Positions 2,676 to 39,279 of a stretch of DNA of 43,168 nucleotides are shown here, one piece after another (the stretch's first letter is position 1; every line of letters starts with the position of its first letter). Under the pieces are notes generated by a model, which had not been told where the DNA came from, made no database searches, and saw nothing but the letters and a program-made list of their open reading frames with translations. The DNA is from a virus. Made by a program: the position numbers and the translations under genes. The stretch covers positions 1 to 43,168 of IMG/VR virus record IMGVR_UViG_3300047320_000341. One strand, given 5' to 3'.

Positions 2676-3053
2676 ATGAAAACCACCCCACCTCCTCCAC
2701 GGACCGCCCAGGACGCCGACAAGTACATCGTTCGCTTCCCTGATGGCATGCGCGATCAGATCGCAGCGGCGGCCAAAGCAAATAATCGGAGCATGAACGC
2801 GGAGATAGTCGCGCGGCTTCAGCAAACGTTTGGCATCACCGGCGTCCGTGCACGGCTACTGGATCTAGTGGCAAGCCATCTTGATGAGGCACTGGCTTCA
2901 GCGCTTAAGACCGTTGGCGTAACTCCTGAAGTCCAAGCTATTTTGGATGAGGAAGGTCCACTTTTGCCCGTGAAACCAATGGAGCCGGAAACAAAGCGTC
3001 GTGCGACGCCAAGTCGATCAAAAAAAACTGCGCGCGCGAAGTCGGGGGCGTAG
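2676..3053 (+). CDS. Arc-type ribbon-helix-helix DNA-binding protein, rightward
   Basis: Predicted repressor, 125 aa. Residues 17-50 match the Arc domain (YIVRFPDGMRDQIAAAAKAN, then RSMNAEIVARLQQTF) and align closely with the 2130-2525 product: R-F, R-D-x-I and N-R-S-M-N-x-E-I are shared. The middle is helical (RARLLDLVASHLDEALASAL) and the last 20 residues are strongly basic (PSRSKKTARAKSG). The -10 box ends at 2668, so transcription should begin at about 2675-2676, on or next to the ATG, and there is no good ribosome binding site. Leaderless mRNA is known for lambda cI in lysogens, which would fit a repressor role here. Confidence 0.8.
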   Translation: MKTTPPPPRTAQDADKYIVRFPDGMRDQIAAAAKANNRSMNAEIVARLQQTFGITGVRARLLDLVASHLDEALASALKTVGVTPEVQAILDEEGPLLPVKPMEPETKRRATPSRSKKTARAKSGA

Positions 3054-3166
3054 TCACGCTGCCAAACGCAACACAGATTTACGCCAGCTTTAGGCTGATC
3101 CCCGAAAACCCGTTTCCCTGACGGGCTGGGCTGGCACTGTTTTTACAGGGGCATCGAGGAGGGGAT

Positions 3167-3931
3167 GTGAACGACTTTAATCATTGGGACTATGCAGATG
3201 AATTTTCAGGCCGAGATGCGGCATATTTGATAGGTGGGATTAATCCATCTAGCAATAATGCAGAAGACTCATACCGTGCATTGCCTATAATCAAGCGAAT
3301 GAAAAAGGCTTATTACAGCTCGTGCTCAGATTATAGAGATGATTTTGAATATTTAGCTGAAGATGATCGACTGATGTTTTCAAGGAATACAAAAAATCCA
3401 AGTAATTTGCTTAGCTGCGAAATCGAGACCTTAATTAAGAATTACGAGAATTCTGAATACGTAAAATCGGGTGATTCATTCCATTCTAGTGGCACTGGGC
3501 CGAAGTTGGTAAAATATCAAGACGACGAAGGGAATGAAGTATTTTTAAAAGACTTAGACGATAAAGGTCACGATGCGATTGGACCAGGGATATTATGGAA
3601 AATGAGCGACCATCACGAATTCGACGATCAATATTTTTCGCGGAGCGAGTTGCGGCGCTGGCTTGCTGATAATAAATTTCCAACTAAATATCATTTCTTA
3701 GATCGAAATGAATTGTCTAGTGCCGGCAGAGCGCTCTCGACCACCGAGCGAAACACCTTGCTCACAATTATTGCAGCGTTGTGCAATTATTCAGACATCA
3801 AGCACGATGCGCGCGGGGTTGCGCCTCGAATAGAAGGAATGACAACTGACATAGGGGCAACGGTAACGGCTGATAGCATTTTGAAAGTATTGAGGCAAAT
3901 TCCTGCTGCTCTTGAATCCCGTACGAGGTAG
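3167..3931 (+). CDS. Conserved prophage hypothetical protein, 254 aa
   Basis: Function unknown. Starts at GTG 3167, behind GAGGAGGGG; the ATG two bases earlier runs directly into a stop. N-terminal part WDYADEFSGRDAAYLIGGIN, a charged middle rich in Asp/Glu, and a C-terminal domain from about residue 190 (STTERNTLLTIIAALCNYS ... ADSILKVLRQIPAAL) that I recognise as a recurring C-terminus in proteobacterial prophage and plasmid hypothetical proteins, often of 200-350 aa. Visibly more AT-rich than its surroundings, suggesting separate acquisition. Placed between the repressor and the AlpA gene, so an accessory or regulatory role is possible. Confidence 0.75.
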   Translation: MNDFNHWDYADEFSGRDAAYLIGGINPSSNNAEDSYRALPIIKRMKKAYYSSCSDYRDDFEYLAEDDRLMFSRNTKNPSNLLSCEIETLIKNYENSEYVKSGDSFHSSGTGPKLVKYQDDEGNEVFLKDLDDKGHDAIGPGILWKMSDHHEFDDQYFSRSELRRWLADNKFPTKYHFLDRNELSSAGRALSTTERNTLLTIIAALCNYSDIKHDARGVAPRIEGMTTDIGATVTADSILKVLRQIPAALESRTR

Positions 3932-4037: not shown

Positions 4038-4280
4038 ATGCCAAGACCCGTTCACCGCATGCCAGCAATGAAGGAAACCTTCGGGCTGGCAGATTCAACA
4101 ATCTATCTCCACATCTCCCAGGGCTTGCTGACCAAGCCAGTTAAGCTCGGCCCGCGCGCGGTTTGTTGGCCGGCGGATGAAATTGACGAGATCATCAAAG
4201 CTCGCATTGCTGGGCAAAGCGAAGATCAAATTCGATCACTGGTCAGTCGCCTCATGACTGCCCGCCAGTCTGCAGCCTAA
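4038..4280 (+). CDS. AlpA-family helix-turn-helix regulator, 80 aa
   Basis: Small DNA-binding protein of the AlpA/excisionase-like winged-helix group. Visible signature: METFGL-type helix (MKETFGLADSTIYLHISQG), a wing LLTKPVKLGPRAVCWPADEI, then a C-terminal helix with a basic tail. AlpA proteins activate prophage excision or other early functions. GGATG lies 5 bases before the ATG. The paired palindromes at 3937-3970 are the obvious candidate control sites. A separate excisionase-like gene lies at 35452-35661, so this one is more likely a transcriptional regulator of the rightward early genes. Confidence 0.85.
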   Translation: MPRPVHRMPAMKETFGLADSTIYLHISQGLLTKPVKLGPRAVCWPADEIDEIIKARIAGQSEDQIRSLVSRLMTARQSAA

Positions 4281-5719: not shown

Positions 5720-7186
5720 ATGGCCACCTTAGAACTCCGCCCGCGCCAACTCGCGGTAGTCGATGCTGTGTCGAAGGCATTCGCAGCCGACAAAAATATT
5801 CTAGTCGTGGCACCGTGCGGCTTCGGTAAAACCGAGTTGGCCACCTATTTCGCCATGGCGACAAAAGCCAGGGGTAAGAGCACGTCATTCATCATGGATC
5901 GCATCAGTCTCGTCGAGCAAGCGTCCGAGCGCTTCGATAAATACGGCCTGGAGCACTCCATCAGCCAAGCGCAGAACCCGCGCCATCGGCCATGGGAAAA
6001 GGTCCATATTTGCAGCTTGCAGACCGTGTGCCGCAAGGGCTGGCTGCCGGTGTCGCTACAGATCGTCGACGAGTGCCATGTGCTGTCGACGGCGATGAAG
6101 GCGCGCCTGCAGGAGCGGGGCTGCTACACCATCGGCCTGACTGCCACGCCATTCACGAAAGGTCTGGGCAAATACTTCGATTGCGTGATCAATGCGGCCA
6201 CGACGAACGACTTGATCCGCGAGGGGTTGTTGGTACCGTTCCGCGTGTTCGCCGCATCCGAACCGGATATGACGGGCGCGAAGGTTGTCGCGGGCGAGTG
6301 GGCCGAAAAGGACGTTGAGGCACGGTCGCTGCCGATCGTCGGCGATGCAGTGGCCGGCTATATGGAGCACGGCGCCAACAAGAAGTTTATCGCGTTCGCT
6401 TCGTCGGTTGCGCATGCCGAGGAATTGCAAAAGCAGTTCTTGGCCGCCGGTGTCGTCTCGAATTTGTACACGTATCGGCAGAGCGATGACGAGCGCGCCG
6501 AGTCGGTCGCCGAATTCCGCAAGCCAGACAGTTACATTCGCGGCCTGATTAGCATCGAGAGCCTGACGCGTGGCTTTGACGTCGCCGATGTCGAGGTGCT
6601 AATTCTTGCACGGCCGCTGCGTAAGGCGCTGGCCGTGCATATCCAGATGCTGGGCCGCGTGCTGCGCACTGCGATCGAGGCCGGGAAAACAGAGGCGATT
6701 GTGCTGGACCATAGCGGCAATTGCATGCGCTTTTGGTCGCAAGTGCAGGACTTCTTCGAGAACGGGATCTCCGAACTTGACGACGGCAAGCCGAAGGAGG
6801 TAAAGGCCGCCAAGAAGGCCGATCGCAAGCCCGTCAAGTGCCCGTCGTGCTTCCACGTGCATGACCCACTGCCGGCGTGCCCGGCCTGCGGCAAGGTCTA
6901 CGAGCGTGGCGCCGAAATCCAGCACGTCGAAGGCGTCCTGAAAGAGGTCAAAGGCGGCAAGGCAGCACTGACCACCGAAGAAAAGCGTGACTTCTATTTG
7001 CAGCTTCGCGCCATCGCGGTCGAGCGCGGCTATAAGGACGGCTGGGCGGCGAACAAATACAAGGAAAAATTCGGCGCCTGGCCTGAGAGCACGGACGATG
7101 CCCCGCGCCCGGCCATCGCCGGAGTGCTGCGCTGGGTGAAGTCCCGCAATATCGCATTCGCCAAGGGCAAGCAGAGCAATGGATAG
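5720..7186 (+). CDS. Superfamily 2 DEAD/DEAH-type helicase with zinc ribbon, 488 aa
   Basis: ATP-driven nucleic acid helicase, probably for phage replication. Start taken at ATG 5720 behind GGAAG. Motifs in order: Walker A APCGFGKT (31-38), motif II DECH (117-120), motif III TAT (141-143), and motif VI QMLGRVLR (309-316). A four-cysteine zinc ribbon follows: C374, C377, C387, C390. The closest recognisable architecture is the RadD/YejH-like and phage DEAD-box group. The C-terminal 90 residues contain a WAANKYKEKFGAWP segment typical of these phage helicases. The gene overlaps the start of the primase gene by 8 bases, so the two are probably made together. Confidence 0.9.
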   Translation: MATLELRPRQLAVVDAVSKAFAADKNILVVAPCGFGKTELATYFAMATKARGKSTSFIMDRISLVEQASERFDKYGLEHSISQAQNPRHRPWEKVHICSLQTVCRKGWLPVSLQIVDECHVLSTAMKARLQERGCYTIGLTATPFTKGLGKYFDCVINAATTNDLIREGLLVPFRVFAASEPDMTGAKVVAGEWAEKDVEARSLPIVGDAVAGYMEHGANKKFIAFASSVAHAEELQKQFLAAGVVSNLYTYRQSDDERAESVAEFRKPDSYIRGLISIESLTRGFDVADVEVLILARPLRKALAVHIQMLGRVLRTAIEAGKTEAIVLDHSGNCMRFWSQVQDFFENGISELDDGKPKEVKAAKKADRKPVKCPSCFHVHDPLPACPACGKVYERGAEIQHVEGVLKEVKGGKAALTTEEKRDFYLQLRAIAVERGYKDGWAANKYKEKFGAWPESTDDAPRPAIAGVLRWVKSRNIAFAKGKQSNG

Positions 7187-8135
7187 TTTCATGAACTTCA
7201 TCGCCGCCAACGGCATCATCGCGCCCGACTACATCACGCCAGGCAAATGGATGCGCTGCCGGACCACGAATCACCCGCGCAAGAAAAACGGCAGCATCAA
7301 GCTGGCCGATGACGGCTTGGTCGGCTGGTGCCAGGACTATGCCGTACACGCCGAACCGCTCATGTGGCGCGCCAATGACTCGACAATATTTGTGGTGCCG
7401 ATCGACCGCGCAATGATCGCCAGGCGTAACGCCGAGCGCCGCGCCGGGCTGATCGCTGCCACGCTTGGCGCGCGCGAGTATTACGCCAAATGCCAGCCGC
7501 TGAAACATTCGCACGCCTACTTGGCCGCCAAAGGCTTCGGCGTCGCTGGCTGTCATGGCCTGCGCGTTGACGCTGGTGGCTGGCTCGTTATTCCGATGCT
7601 CTATAACGGCAAAATTCTCAGCCTGCAGCGCATTGCCCCGGACGGTGAGAAAAAATTCCATTTCGGCGCGACCACCAAGGGCGCGTACTACATCATCGAG
7701 CGGCCAGGATCGACGCTGACGGCGATTGCAGAAGGTTTCGCTACTGGCTTAACCATCTTCCACGCCGTGCCCACCTGTCGCGTTCTAGTGGCATTCAACG
7801 CCGGAAATCTTCCCGTCGTCGCGGCGAGCATCGCGCGCTTCGGCATGGGTGTCGTATGTGCTGACAACGACTGGGAAACGCACAACCGCATCGGCACGAA
7901 CCCGGGGCTGGATGCCGCCGTAAAGGCCGCAACGATTCTGGGCGTCGGCATTGCTTTTCCAGAGTGCGCAGGCAGCGACTGGAACGATTATTTGGCCGAG
8001 CGCACACAAGCCGTGATGGATGCCCAGGACTTCAGTTTCAGTCGCAAGCAAAGCCCATCGCACGTGCGAGCCAAGGTCTTTGCCGAAATCAAAATGCAGG
8101 TGATGCGTGAGGCCCGGCTGCTGCGGGCAGCGTAA
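7179..8135 (+). CDS. Toprim-domain primase, 318 aa
   Basis: Makes RNA primers for phage DNA replication. A Toprim domain is visible from about residue 180: IAEGFATGL with E185-G186, then CADND with D229 and D231, the acidic metal-binding residues of the fold. The N-terminus (residues 20-60) has Cys27 and Cys51 and a WCQDY motif, in place of a complete zinc-binding domain. The middle (residues 95-175) resembles the primase alpha/beta region of phage P4-type and Gp4-type primases. No helicase domain is attached; the separate helicase upstream may partner it. ATG 7179 overlaps the helicase stop; ATG 7191 is an alternative start. Confidence 0.85.
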   Translation: MDSFMNFIAANGIIAPDYITPGKWMRCRTTNHPRKKNGSIKLADDGLVGWCQDYAVHAEPLMWRANDSTIFVVPIDRAMIARRNAERRAGLIAATLGAREYYAKCQPLKHSHAYLAAKGFGVAGCHGLRVDAGGWLVIPMLYNGKILSLQRIAPDGEKKFHFGATTKGAYYIIERPGSTLTAIAEGFATGLTIFHAVPTCRVLVAFNAGNLPVVAASIARFGMGVVCADNDWETHNRIGTNPGLDAAVKAATILGVGIAFPECAGSDWNDYLAERTQAVMDAQDFSFSRKQSPSHVRAKVFAEIKMQVMREARLLRAA

Positions 8136-8139
8136 CGGA

Positions 8140-8400
8140 AAAGCAGGGCATCAAAGGTGGAGCGGACAACACCTCAAAAAATGTGCAACGGCCTGAATCG
8201 GCCCACACCGCAAAAAGACTGGCCCTGTCTAACCTTACAGGCGAGCCAACGCAGCGTTCCTGAAGCGACTGCAAGCAATCCGTAGGGGCAAGTGGTGAAA
8301 CAACCCTACGCGAGAGTGAATTCAGGCTCCTAGAGGGCGTGGTTTTTACGGAGAAATCGTAAAAATGGCGCGGTTGAAGATCAAGAGCTCAAGTCAAGAG
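8140..8400 (+). ncRNA. Structured RNA candidate, possibly an orphan HEARO/omega-RNA relative
   Basis: A 300-base stretch with no early-gene coding signal but dense complementarity in plus orientation. Stems: AGGTG/CACCT (8155-8159 with 8170-8174); GGCC-TGAATC-GGCC with TGTG/CACA outside; GCGG at 8162-8165, in the first loop, with CCGC near 8198-8201, a possible pseudoknot; TGGC..CCTGT/ACAGG..GCCA; GCAG..CTGC; GTAGGG/CCCTAC with a GUGAAAC loop; and TTTTTACG/CGTAAAAA. The shape and several conserved-looking strings remind me of HEARO RNAs, the omega-RNAs of IscB, many of which are found without the nuclease. No IscB or HNH gene is adjacent. Structure is well supported; the family name is memory and inference. 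Confidence 0.5.
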
Positions 8401-37319: not shown

Positions 37320-38573
37320 CTACGCTGCATCGCCAAGCAGCGGAACTACCTCAGCGCCGACACGCAGCTTGTCCAGATAATCGGCCCAGTTCTGCATCAT
37401 CTTTCGGCGCGCCGGCAGATGCGCGGTGCGGTTGTAGGCGCGCCCATTGGGGTCTTTGACGGCATGCGCAAGTTGGTGCTCTATCAGGTCTACTCGTTCC
37501 CCCAGCACTTCGTCAAGGATCGTGCGGGCCATCGCGCGGAAGCCGTGTGCCGTCATTGTCTCCTTATCGTAGCCCATGCCCCGGAGAGCAGCATTGATCG
37601 TGTTCTCGCTCATGCAGCGCTCGCCGGTACGTACACTTGGGAAAACATAGCGCCCATTGCCGGTCATCGAATGCACGGCCTGGAGCAGTTCGACAGCCTG
37701 CTTGGCCAGCGGAACGATGTGATCGTTCTTCATTTTCATTTTGGTGCCCGGGATGCGCCATTCGGCGGCATCGAGATCGACTTCCGCCCACTCCATCGAG
37801 CGGATCTCGCCTGGGCGCTGGAAGACCAGGGGAGACAATTTAAGCGCGGCCGTTGCATATGCGTGTCCACCATAAGCATGTATTGAACGCATCAAATCTC
37901 CGGCGCGCCGGGGATCAGTAATAGCGGCAAAATGAGCTGCGGGTATCGCCGATAACGCGCCACGTAAGTCAGTTGTCACATCGCGATCGGCGAAGCCTGA
38001 TGACACCGCGTATCGGAACACTCGGCCGCAGAGTTGCTTAATCTTGTGGGCGGACTCGATTGCACCGCGCGCTTCAATCTTTCGTAGCGCGGCAAGAACG
38101 TCGGGCGGCCGGATCGTCGATATGGGCATCGTTCCGATCTCCGGAAAAATGTTCTTCTCCAGCCAATCCGTGTTTTTTTCCTGCGTGCTTTCGGCTCGGT
38201 CGGCGGCTGTCTTGCTGAGCCATTCGCGAGCCAGCGCTTCAAAGGTATTCGCCGCATCGGCGGTCCGCGTAGCTTGTTCCTGGCGCCTGACCGAAGCCGG
38301 GTCAATCTCCTCGGCCAGAAGCTTGCGCGCGACCGCGCGACGTTCCCGGGCCTCCAAGAGCGAGATTTCCGGGTAGGGGCCAAACGTGAGCCGGTTGTTC
38401 TTCTTGCTACTCGGCTGCCGATAGGCCATCCGCCAGATTTTTGAACCGGTCGGCGACACCTCAAGGTACATTCCACCGCCATCGGCTAGTGTGTAGGTCT
38501 TCGGCGCGTCTTTGGGCTTGGGCTTGGCGTTGCGCACCTGGGTATCGGTGAGCGGGGTAGCTAGTTTGGGCAT
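37320..38573 (-). CDS. P4-type tyrosine integrase, 417 aa
   Basis: Site-specific recombinase inserting the prophage at a tRNA gene. Residues 1-95: arm-type DNA-binding domain (DUF4102; YTLADGGGMYLEVSPTGSKI, LTFGPYPEISLLEARERRA). Residues 105-200: core-binding domain. Catalytic residues visible: R253 in FQRPGEIR, a Lys in the KMKMK strand near 280, H343-x2-R346 in AHGFRAM, H370 and Y380 in RAYNRTAHL. GGAG lies 7 bases before the ATG. Its start overlaps the end of the 38561-39028 gene, so both are translated together. Confidence 0.95.
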   Translation of the reverse strand: MPKLATPLTDTQVRNAKPKPKDAPKTYTLADGGGMYLEVSPTGSKIWRMAYRQPSSKKNNRLTFGPYPEISLLEARERRAVARKLLAEEIDPASVRRQEQATRTADAANTFEALAREWLSKTAADRAESTQEKNTDWLEKNIFPEIGTMPISTIRPPDVLAALRKIEARGAIESAHKIKQLCGRVFRYAVSSGFADRDVTTDLRGALSAIPAAHFAAITDPRRAGDLMRSIHAYGGHAYATAALKLSPLVFQRPGEIRSMEWAEVDLDAAEWRIPGTKMKMKNDHIVPLAKQAVELLQAVHSMTGNGRYVFPSVRTGERCMSENTINAALRGMGYDKETMTAHGFRAMARTILDEVLGERVDLIEHQLAHAVKDPNGRAYNRTAHLPARRKMMQNWADYLDKLRVGAEVVPLLGDAA

Positions 38574-39028
38574 GTCGGTGCTCCGGTATCGTCATCAGCT
38601 GTGGCGCTCAGAAAGGACCGCAGCGCAGCGACTTGCGCGGCGCTGAGAGTCAGGCGTCCAGACTGTTTCTCAAGGGTCAGGCTGCCGTCATCGCTCATGG
38701 ACAGGCGCAGCCTCGGCTTTATCGCTATGCTCGCTCGCTCAGGCTTTCCCTGCTTCCGTCTACGATCCACGGGATCAATTCCTTCGTCGATAAGTCGGCG
38801 GGCGTTGTCGCGGTGTTGCCGCGCTTCGGTCAAGGACACGCTCGGGTAGGGGCCGAATGATATTGAAGTCTCCTTGCCGCCCCGCCTGTACGCCATGCGC
38901 CACAATTTCGCGCCGGCAGGCGTCACTTCCAGATATAACCCGCCGCCGTCACCGATGATGAACGATCGCGCTTTGGGTAATAGGCTCTCGATCTGCTCCT
39001 CTGTCAGAGGTGTGGCAAGTTTCGGCAT
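38561..39028 (-). CDS. Stand-alone integrase arm-domain protein, 155 aa
   Basis: Residues 1-92 repeat the N-terminus of the adjacent integrase: both begin MPKLATPLT, and share D-G-G-G-[LM]-Y-L-E-V-[ST]-P, [KL]-[IL]-W-R-M-A-Y-R and FGPYP with S-L-x-E-A-R. There is no core or catalytic domain. Residues 105-140 are a short unrelated module (RLRLSMSDDGSLTLEKQSGR, LTLSAAQVAALRSFLS). The start is ATG 39028 behind GGA; ATG 39040 is possible. It should bind the same arm sites as the integrase and could regulate recombination, either as an accessory protein or a competitor. Confidence 0.9.
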   Translation of the reverse strand: MPKLATPLTEEQIESLLPKARSFIIGDGGGLYLEVTPAGAKLWRMAYRRGGKETSISFGPYPSVSLTEARQHRDNARRLIDEGIDPVDRRRKQGKPERASIAIKPRLRLSMSDDGSLTLEKQSGRLTLSAAQVAALRSFLSATADDDTGAPTCPN

Positions 39029-39124: not shown

Positions 39125-39160
39125 AAAAAAACCGCCACTCCCTAGGGAGAATGGCGGTTT
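39125..39160 (-). terminator. Intrinsic terminator downstream of tRNA-Leu
   Basis: AAACCGCCA (39129-39137) pairs with TGGCGGTTT (39152-39160), and CTCCCTAGGGAG inside (39138-39149) extends the stem. On the minus strand the stem is followed by T residues. It ends tRNA transcription before the leftward integrase operon. It lies on the prophage side of the tRNA 3' end. Confidence 0.85.
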
Positions 39161-39194: not shown

Positions 39195-39279
39195 TGGTGC
39201 TCCGAGCCGGAATCGAACCGGCACGCCTTGCGGCGGGAGATTTTAAGTCTCCAGTGTCTACCAATTTCACCATCGGAGC
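39195..39279 (-). tRNA. leuZ: tRNA-Leu(UAA)
   Basis: Cloverleaf on the minus strand: acceptor GCTCCGA (39279-39273) pairs with TCGGAGC (39205-39199), followed by A and encoded CCA (39197-39195). D-loop GAAATTGGTAGACAC, anticodon loop CTTAAAA giving anticodon UAA, a long variable arm typical of leucine tRNAs, and T-arm with GGTTCGAATCC. The gene's 3' end faces the integrase, so it is the probable attachment site and remains complete after integration. Confidence 0.95.

Follow-up and report, generated by a model that had tools for sequence, protein, structure and literature searches.

A stand-alone integrase-type arm domain gene overlapping a prophage integrase gene beside tRNA-Leu: a candidate regulator of the integration module

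The stretch of DNA analysed here (the window) comprises positions 1 to 43,168 of the virus record IMGVR_UViG_3300047320_000341. It contains a tailed-phage prophage, recognized by its TerL, portal, capsid and tape measure genes, which ends at the 3' end of a tRNA-Leu (TAA) gene predicted by ARAGORN (bp 39195 to 39279, minus strand); host-like genes, including one for a penicillin amidase and a match to metB-like genes, are found on its far side. No direct repeat marking the left att site was found within the record. Along the minus strand from the tRNA gene, a 166-base spacer is followed by a small gene of 155 codons (bp 39028 to 38561) and then by the gene for a 417-amino acid tyrosine integrase of the P4/SXT type (bp 38573 to 37320), with matches to PF13356, PF22022 and PF00589. 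The small gene starts with an ATG at bp 39028, while an alternative TTG at bp 39040 would extend the product to 159 amino acids. The 13-base overlap between the two genes described in the earlier note was confirmed (bp 38561 to 38573): the stop codon of the small gene lies within the start of the integrase gene, and the ribosome-binding site and start codon of the latter fall inside the small gene. At bp 4038 to 4280 on the plus strand, the same element encodes an 80-amino acid AlpA-family protein (PF05930, 34.3 bits against a cut-off of 21) which is a candidate recombination directionality factor (RDF).

Residues 8-93 of the small protein match the Arm-DNA-bind_3 (DUF4102) family PF13356 with 87.4 bits (E 7e-25, cut-off 27), compared to 91.2 bits for the neighbouring integrase. 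In a BLASTP comparison, residues 1-93 aligned with residues 1-99 of that integrase at 50 of 99 identical positions (51%, E 4e-32), starting with an identical MPKLATPLT. The earlier statement that the small protein repeats the integrase N-terminus therefore holds as homology but not as a recent exact duplication. AlphaFold2 modelled the arm domain with a pLDDT of 90-96, and Foldseek matched it to the structures 3jtz, 3ju0 and 3rmp, with a TM-score of 0.92-0.93 to 3jtz and to the attP-bound 3rmp; all positions that are invariant across 32 other arm sequences are kept. The small protein thus belongs to Arm-DNA-bind_3 by Pfam score and predicted fold, and resembles the arm domains of P4/SXT-type integrases in profile, sequence and predicted structure. 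Outside the arm domain it showed no match to a core-binding or catalytic domain and does not qualify as a tyrosine integrase, nor is it an AlpA, MerR-like or winged helix-turn-helix (wHTH) protein, PF13356 being the only Pfam family above its cut-off. An integrase-type arm domain encoded without a catalytic domain, as had been proposed, was accordingly borne out by both Pfam and BLASTP. Its best PHROG match is PHROG 3423, which covers the arm region only (residues 1-100) and leaves the tail outside the profile; since residues 1-160 of the integrase match the same profile nearly end to end, PHROG 3423 seems to model the integrase N-terminus. Most named-phage matches of the small protein are annotated as integrase, and some records carry no annotation. 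Tyrosine integrases of the P4/SXT class hold a regulatory arm and a catalytic domain in one chain, whereas the arm of the small protein stands alone, is followed by a different C-terminal module, and lacks the core-binding and catalytic domains.

That C-terminal module, encoded by 56 codons (bp 38564 to 38731, minus strand), was likewise upheld as distinct, as the last approximately 55 residues match neither the integrase nor any Pfam family. Folded alone with AlphaFold2, the tail gave a beta-beta-beta-alpha arrangement with a core pLDDT of 84-93, spanning about residues 105-145. Searching 399 genomes of one order at the protein level returned several short arm ORFs that match the small protein beyond the arm and lie directly before an integrase gene, and the last 50 residues of such ORFs align with the pattern RFxLDsDGaLs...L.L.paet.eLRaFLdAT, from which tail profiles (A2 and A4) are available. 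The module has no sequence relative in Pfam or the PDB, was not found in the phage or plasmid collections, and gave no Foldseek match below E 0.7. Three weak tail-profile matches were recovered, in L168 (bp 1468 to 2019), L160 (bp 1048 to 1629) and L161 (bp 805 to 1650). The N-terminal parts of these proteins, for which no Pfam family could be named, look like wHTH domains, their tails look like that of the small protein, and their gene neighbours look phage-like; the L161 protein additionally matches phrog_18765. Profile-profile comparison of the tails gave a probability of 97%, which is suggestive only since all three proteins had been picked by the same profile. The likeness to wHTH-type proteins would fit a multimerization or regulatory tail.

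Strong tail-profile matches were found in 5 of the 399 genomes of the order, with two more in a class sample of 369 and three in a phylum sample of 349, and tail-profile matches were found in 3 of 117 and 5 of 199 genomes of two families. The module recurs in 12 other loci, making 13 with the window, and at all of these it is conserved and adjoins an integrase gene, the combination by which we recognize a new family. The arm-domain-only proteins beside integrases that the earlier note recommended searching for therefore exist as a recurrent arrangement. In every case the integrase frame opens inside the end of the small gene or immediately behind it, and the integrases, all of the P4/SXT type, are full length in 12 of the 13 loci, the broken one (G320) lying near a contig end. 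The adjoining RNA genes vary (tRNA-Leu, tmRNA, and tRNAs for Thr, Val, Ala, Met and Phe), and phage- or satellite-type replication genes are present at some loci. The remaining short arm ORFs of the samples are distinct from the tail-bearing small genes: they extend into a core-binding domain or are integrases truncated in some other way. Another stand-alone arm-domain protein, of 159 amino acids and with an unrelated C-terminus, was seen in L106 (bp 5998 to 6477) and L134 (bp 2905 to 3384); in L106 its gene sits between nuclease-like and helicase-like genes with no integrase beside it. The earlier note knew of no described system of this type, and our search, which covered open-access literature, likewise turned up no account of a stand-alone arm domain that partners an integrase.

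In close pairs of loci, dN/dS was about 0.13-0.16 for the tail module, about 0.23 for the arm and about 0.05-0.10 for the integrase gene. The small gene is frameshifted in 4 of the 13 copies (G785, G256, G484 and G1205), with the integrase frame open in each; in relatives 72-73% identical to the window integrase, int follows the att spacer directly and the small gene is absent. Purifying selection, taken together with these frameshifts and absences, makes the small gene look like a selected but dispensable accessory.

The arm stretches of the two genes appear to exchange. In five IMG/VR contigs (L182-L186, at about bp 7990 to 8183), an ORF begins as the small gene, continues as an integrase arm and stops after about 60 residues, a chimera that probably arose when the two arm stretches recombined with each other; gene conversion between them would then also be possible. 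In a separate comparison, the integrases of L051/L156 and L049 are nearly identical while their small genes share a tail but carry very different arms, as if the arm domain had been swapped. In the arm tree, which is poorly resolved, the short arms do not group as a single clade, and nor do the arms of the cognate integrases. The only hint of co-evolution with the cognate integrase comes from the pairwise identities in the window, where the two arm domains are 54% identical to each other and approximately 38-41% identical to other short arms.

Five putative arm-type sites of the form [AG]TCC[AG] lie on the minus strand of the window spacer between bp 39177 and 39063 (0.95 expected, 0 of 1000 shuffles), at +18 (bp 39177 to 39173), +81 (bp 39114 to 39110), +101 (bp 39094 to 39090), +116 (bp 39079 to 39075) and +128 (bp 39067 to 39063) from the tRNA 3' end. 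Eight spacers together hold 27 copies of the word where 7.7 would be expected (0 of 1000 shuffles), a figure that is descriptive because the pattern was picked after the spacers had been read; on the opposite strand of these spacers there was no excess. The register of the sites is the stronger point: they fall mostly at +8, +18 and +28 and at +71, +81, +91 and +101, in steps of 10 bp, and the window sites share this register. A terminator-like hairpin of 14 pairs with a T tail (bp 39129 to 39160, minus strand) separates the two groups of sites, and a hairpin and T run occupy the same place in most relatives. A putative promoter for both genes was placed on the minus strand at bp 39099 to 39071, with TTGCAA (bp 39099 to 39094) and CATACT (bp 39076 to 39071) separated by 17 nt; at 8 of 12 matches it is below the threshold of the strict scan. 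The -35-like hexamer starts at +96 in 8 of the 10 spacers compared, so that the predicted site at +101 overlaps it. The small gene, lying between this putative promoter and the integrase gene, would therefore be the first gene behind a promoter that overlaps presumed arm sites. Elements without the small gene have the same site positions and promoter layout, and the sites are absent from the spacers of G320 and of the G917 type. G-rich, operator-like repeats were also considered, and were rejected as specific to the small gene since they also stand upstream of integrases that lack it. Such repeats were observed before P4/SXT-type integrases in L007, L016, L019, L026 and L027, several with a complementary copy before the integrase start codon.

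In KplE1, where the integrase promoter lies across attL, Int and the RDF repress it, and through this geometry of promoter and arm sites intS is negatively autoregulated by IntS and TorI (PMC2951348). By its predicted features the window would resemble the KplE1 IntS module (PMC2951348) in that a putative integrase promoter overlaps arm-like sites beside a tRNA gene, and negative autoregulation would be expected; it differs in having a separate arm-domain gene placed between promoter and integrase, where KplE1 relies on the integrase and TorI. Given that its arm domain is intact and its tail conserved, and that its gene stands just after the att/promoter region and overlaps the integrase start, the small protein could be a dedicated arm-site-binding regulator of the two-gene operon and of intasome occupancy, a reading to which we give an even chance. 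It is favoured by the recurrence, the purifying selection, the intact arm fold, the phased sites overlapping the -35 hexamer and the KplE1 precedent, and further by the position of the integrase ribosome-binding site and start inside the small gene and the resemblance of the tail to that of wHTH-looking proteins. Such a regulator would bind the arm-type sites near the tRNA gene through its arm domain while its tail would multimerize or recruit a partner; in the prophage state it would repress the operon, and it may set the number of arm sites left free for the integrase. Part of the repression task carried by the KplE1 integrase itself would appear to be given here to a dedicated protein. Counted against this reading are the close integrase relatives without the gene, the four frameshifted copies, the spacers without sites, the weak promoter match in the window, and short arms that do not form one clade in a poorly resolved tree; moreover, autorepression may need no more than Int, since the sites and promoter are also present in elements that lack the small gene. 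The interpretation in the earlier note is partly supported overall; for the control function that it suggested, the geometry of the predicted sites points to autoregulation, and nothing speaks for copy-number control.

Of the other explanations, a structural intasome subunit is a rather unlikely one. The small protein would fill some of the arm sites or pair with Int, reducing the number of full-length integrases required or favouring synapsis, with repression secondary; a gene upstream of and overlapping the integrase gene, an arm fold the same as that of known integrase arms, several phased sites and the closeness of the two window arms all suit this role, whereas the identical site layout of elements lacking the gene and the frameshifted copies beside open integrase genes do not. 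We also judge it improbable that the small protein acts in competition or immunity, by denying access to the arm sites to integrases from related elements or to its own integrase. An intact arm domain free of catalysis would serve that purpose, and one site motif and register are common to unrelated elements, but a competitor encoded in the operon of its own integrase would always be made together with Int. We attach an equally low probability to a non-functional remnant, left by partial duplication of an integrase or by recombination: truncated integrases with arm ORFs are common, 4 of the 13 copies are frameshifted and the L182-L186 chimera joins two arm regions, but the tail is conserved in two separate host groups and unrelated to the integrase, dN/dS lies below 0.25 in close pairs, and the overlap is conserved. 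The decaying integrase copy that the earlier note set against its own proposal is largely excluded by tail conservation and purifying selection, even with the frameshifted copies, and was rejected as the main account. That the small protein is itself an RDF, the directionality control raised previously, is very improbable: its small size, its DNA-binding domain and the place of its gene beside att and int speak for this role, and like the AlpA/Vis and wHTH RDFs it is a small element-encoded protein predicted to bind DNA at att, but its fold is that of an Int-type arm domain and its gene position differs from theirs. The gene also runs in the direction of int and overlaps it, as a gene for an RDF under separate control would not, and the window holds a separate AlpA-type candidate.

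The isolated arm-binding domain of lambda Int, which acts in trans without catalysis, is a laboratory construct; the small protein is like it in being an arm domain without catalysis and unlike it in being a natural gene product. Somewhat more tentatively than for the window gene itself, we suggest from these comparisons that naturally occurring integrase subunits without catalytic function may form a family whose arm domains would be dedicated att regulators, kept matched to the cognate integrase by recombination of the arm stretches, with control of integrase level and intasome make-up as a separable gene. Annotation pipelines are likely to label such genes as integrase fragments. If the regulator reading is true, a natural two-gene version of this kind, with a second arm-domain protein working at the att sites of the integrase, would allow a direct test of which arm functions (repression, site occupancy, directionality) come apart from catalysis, and it would give the tRNA-targeting integration modules of several bacterial groups a further part.
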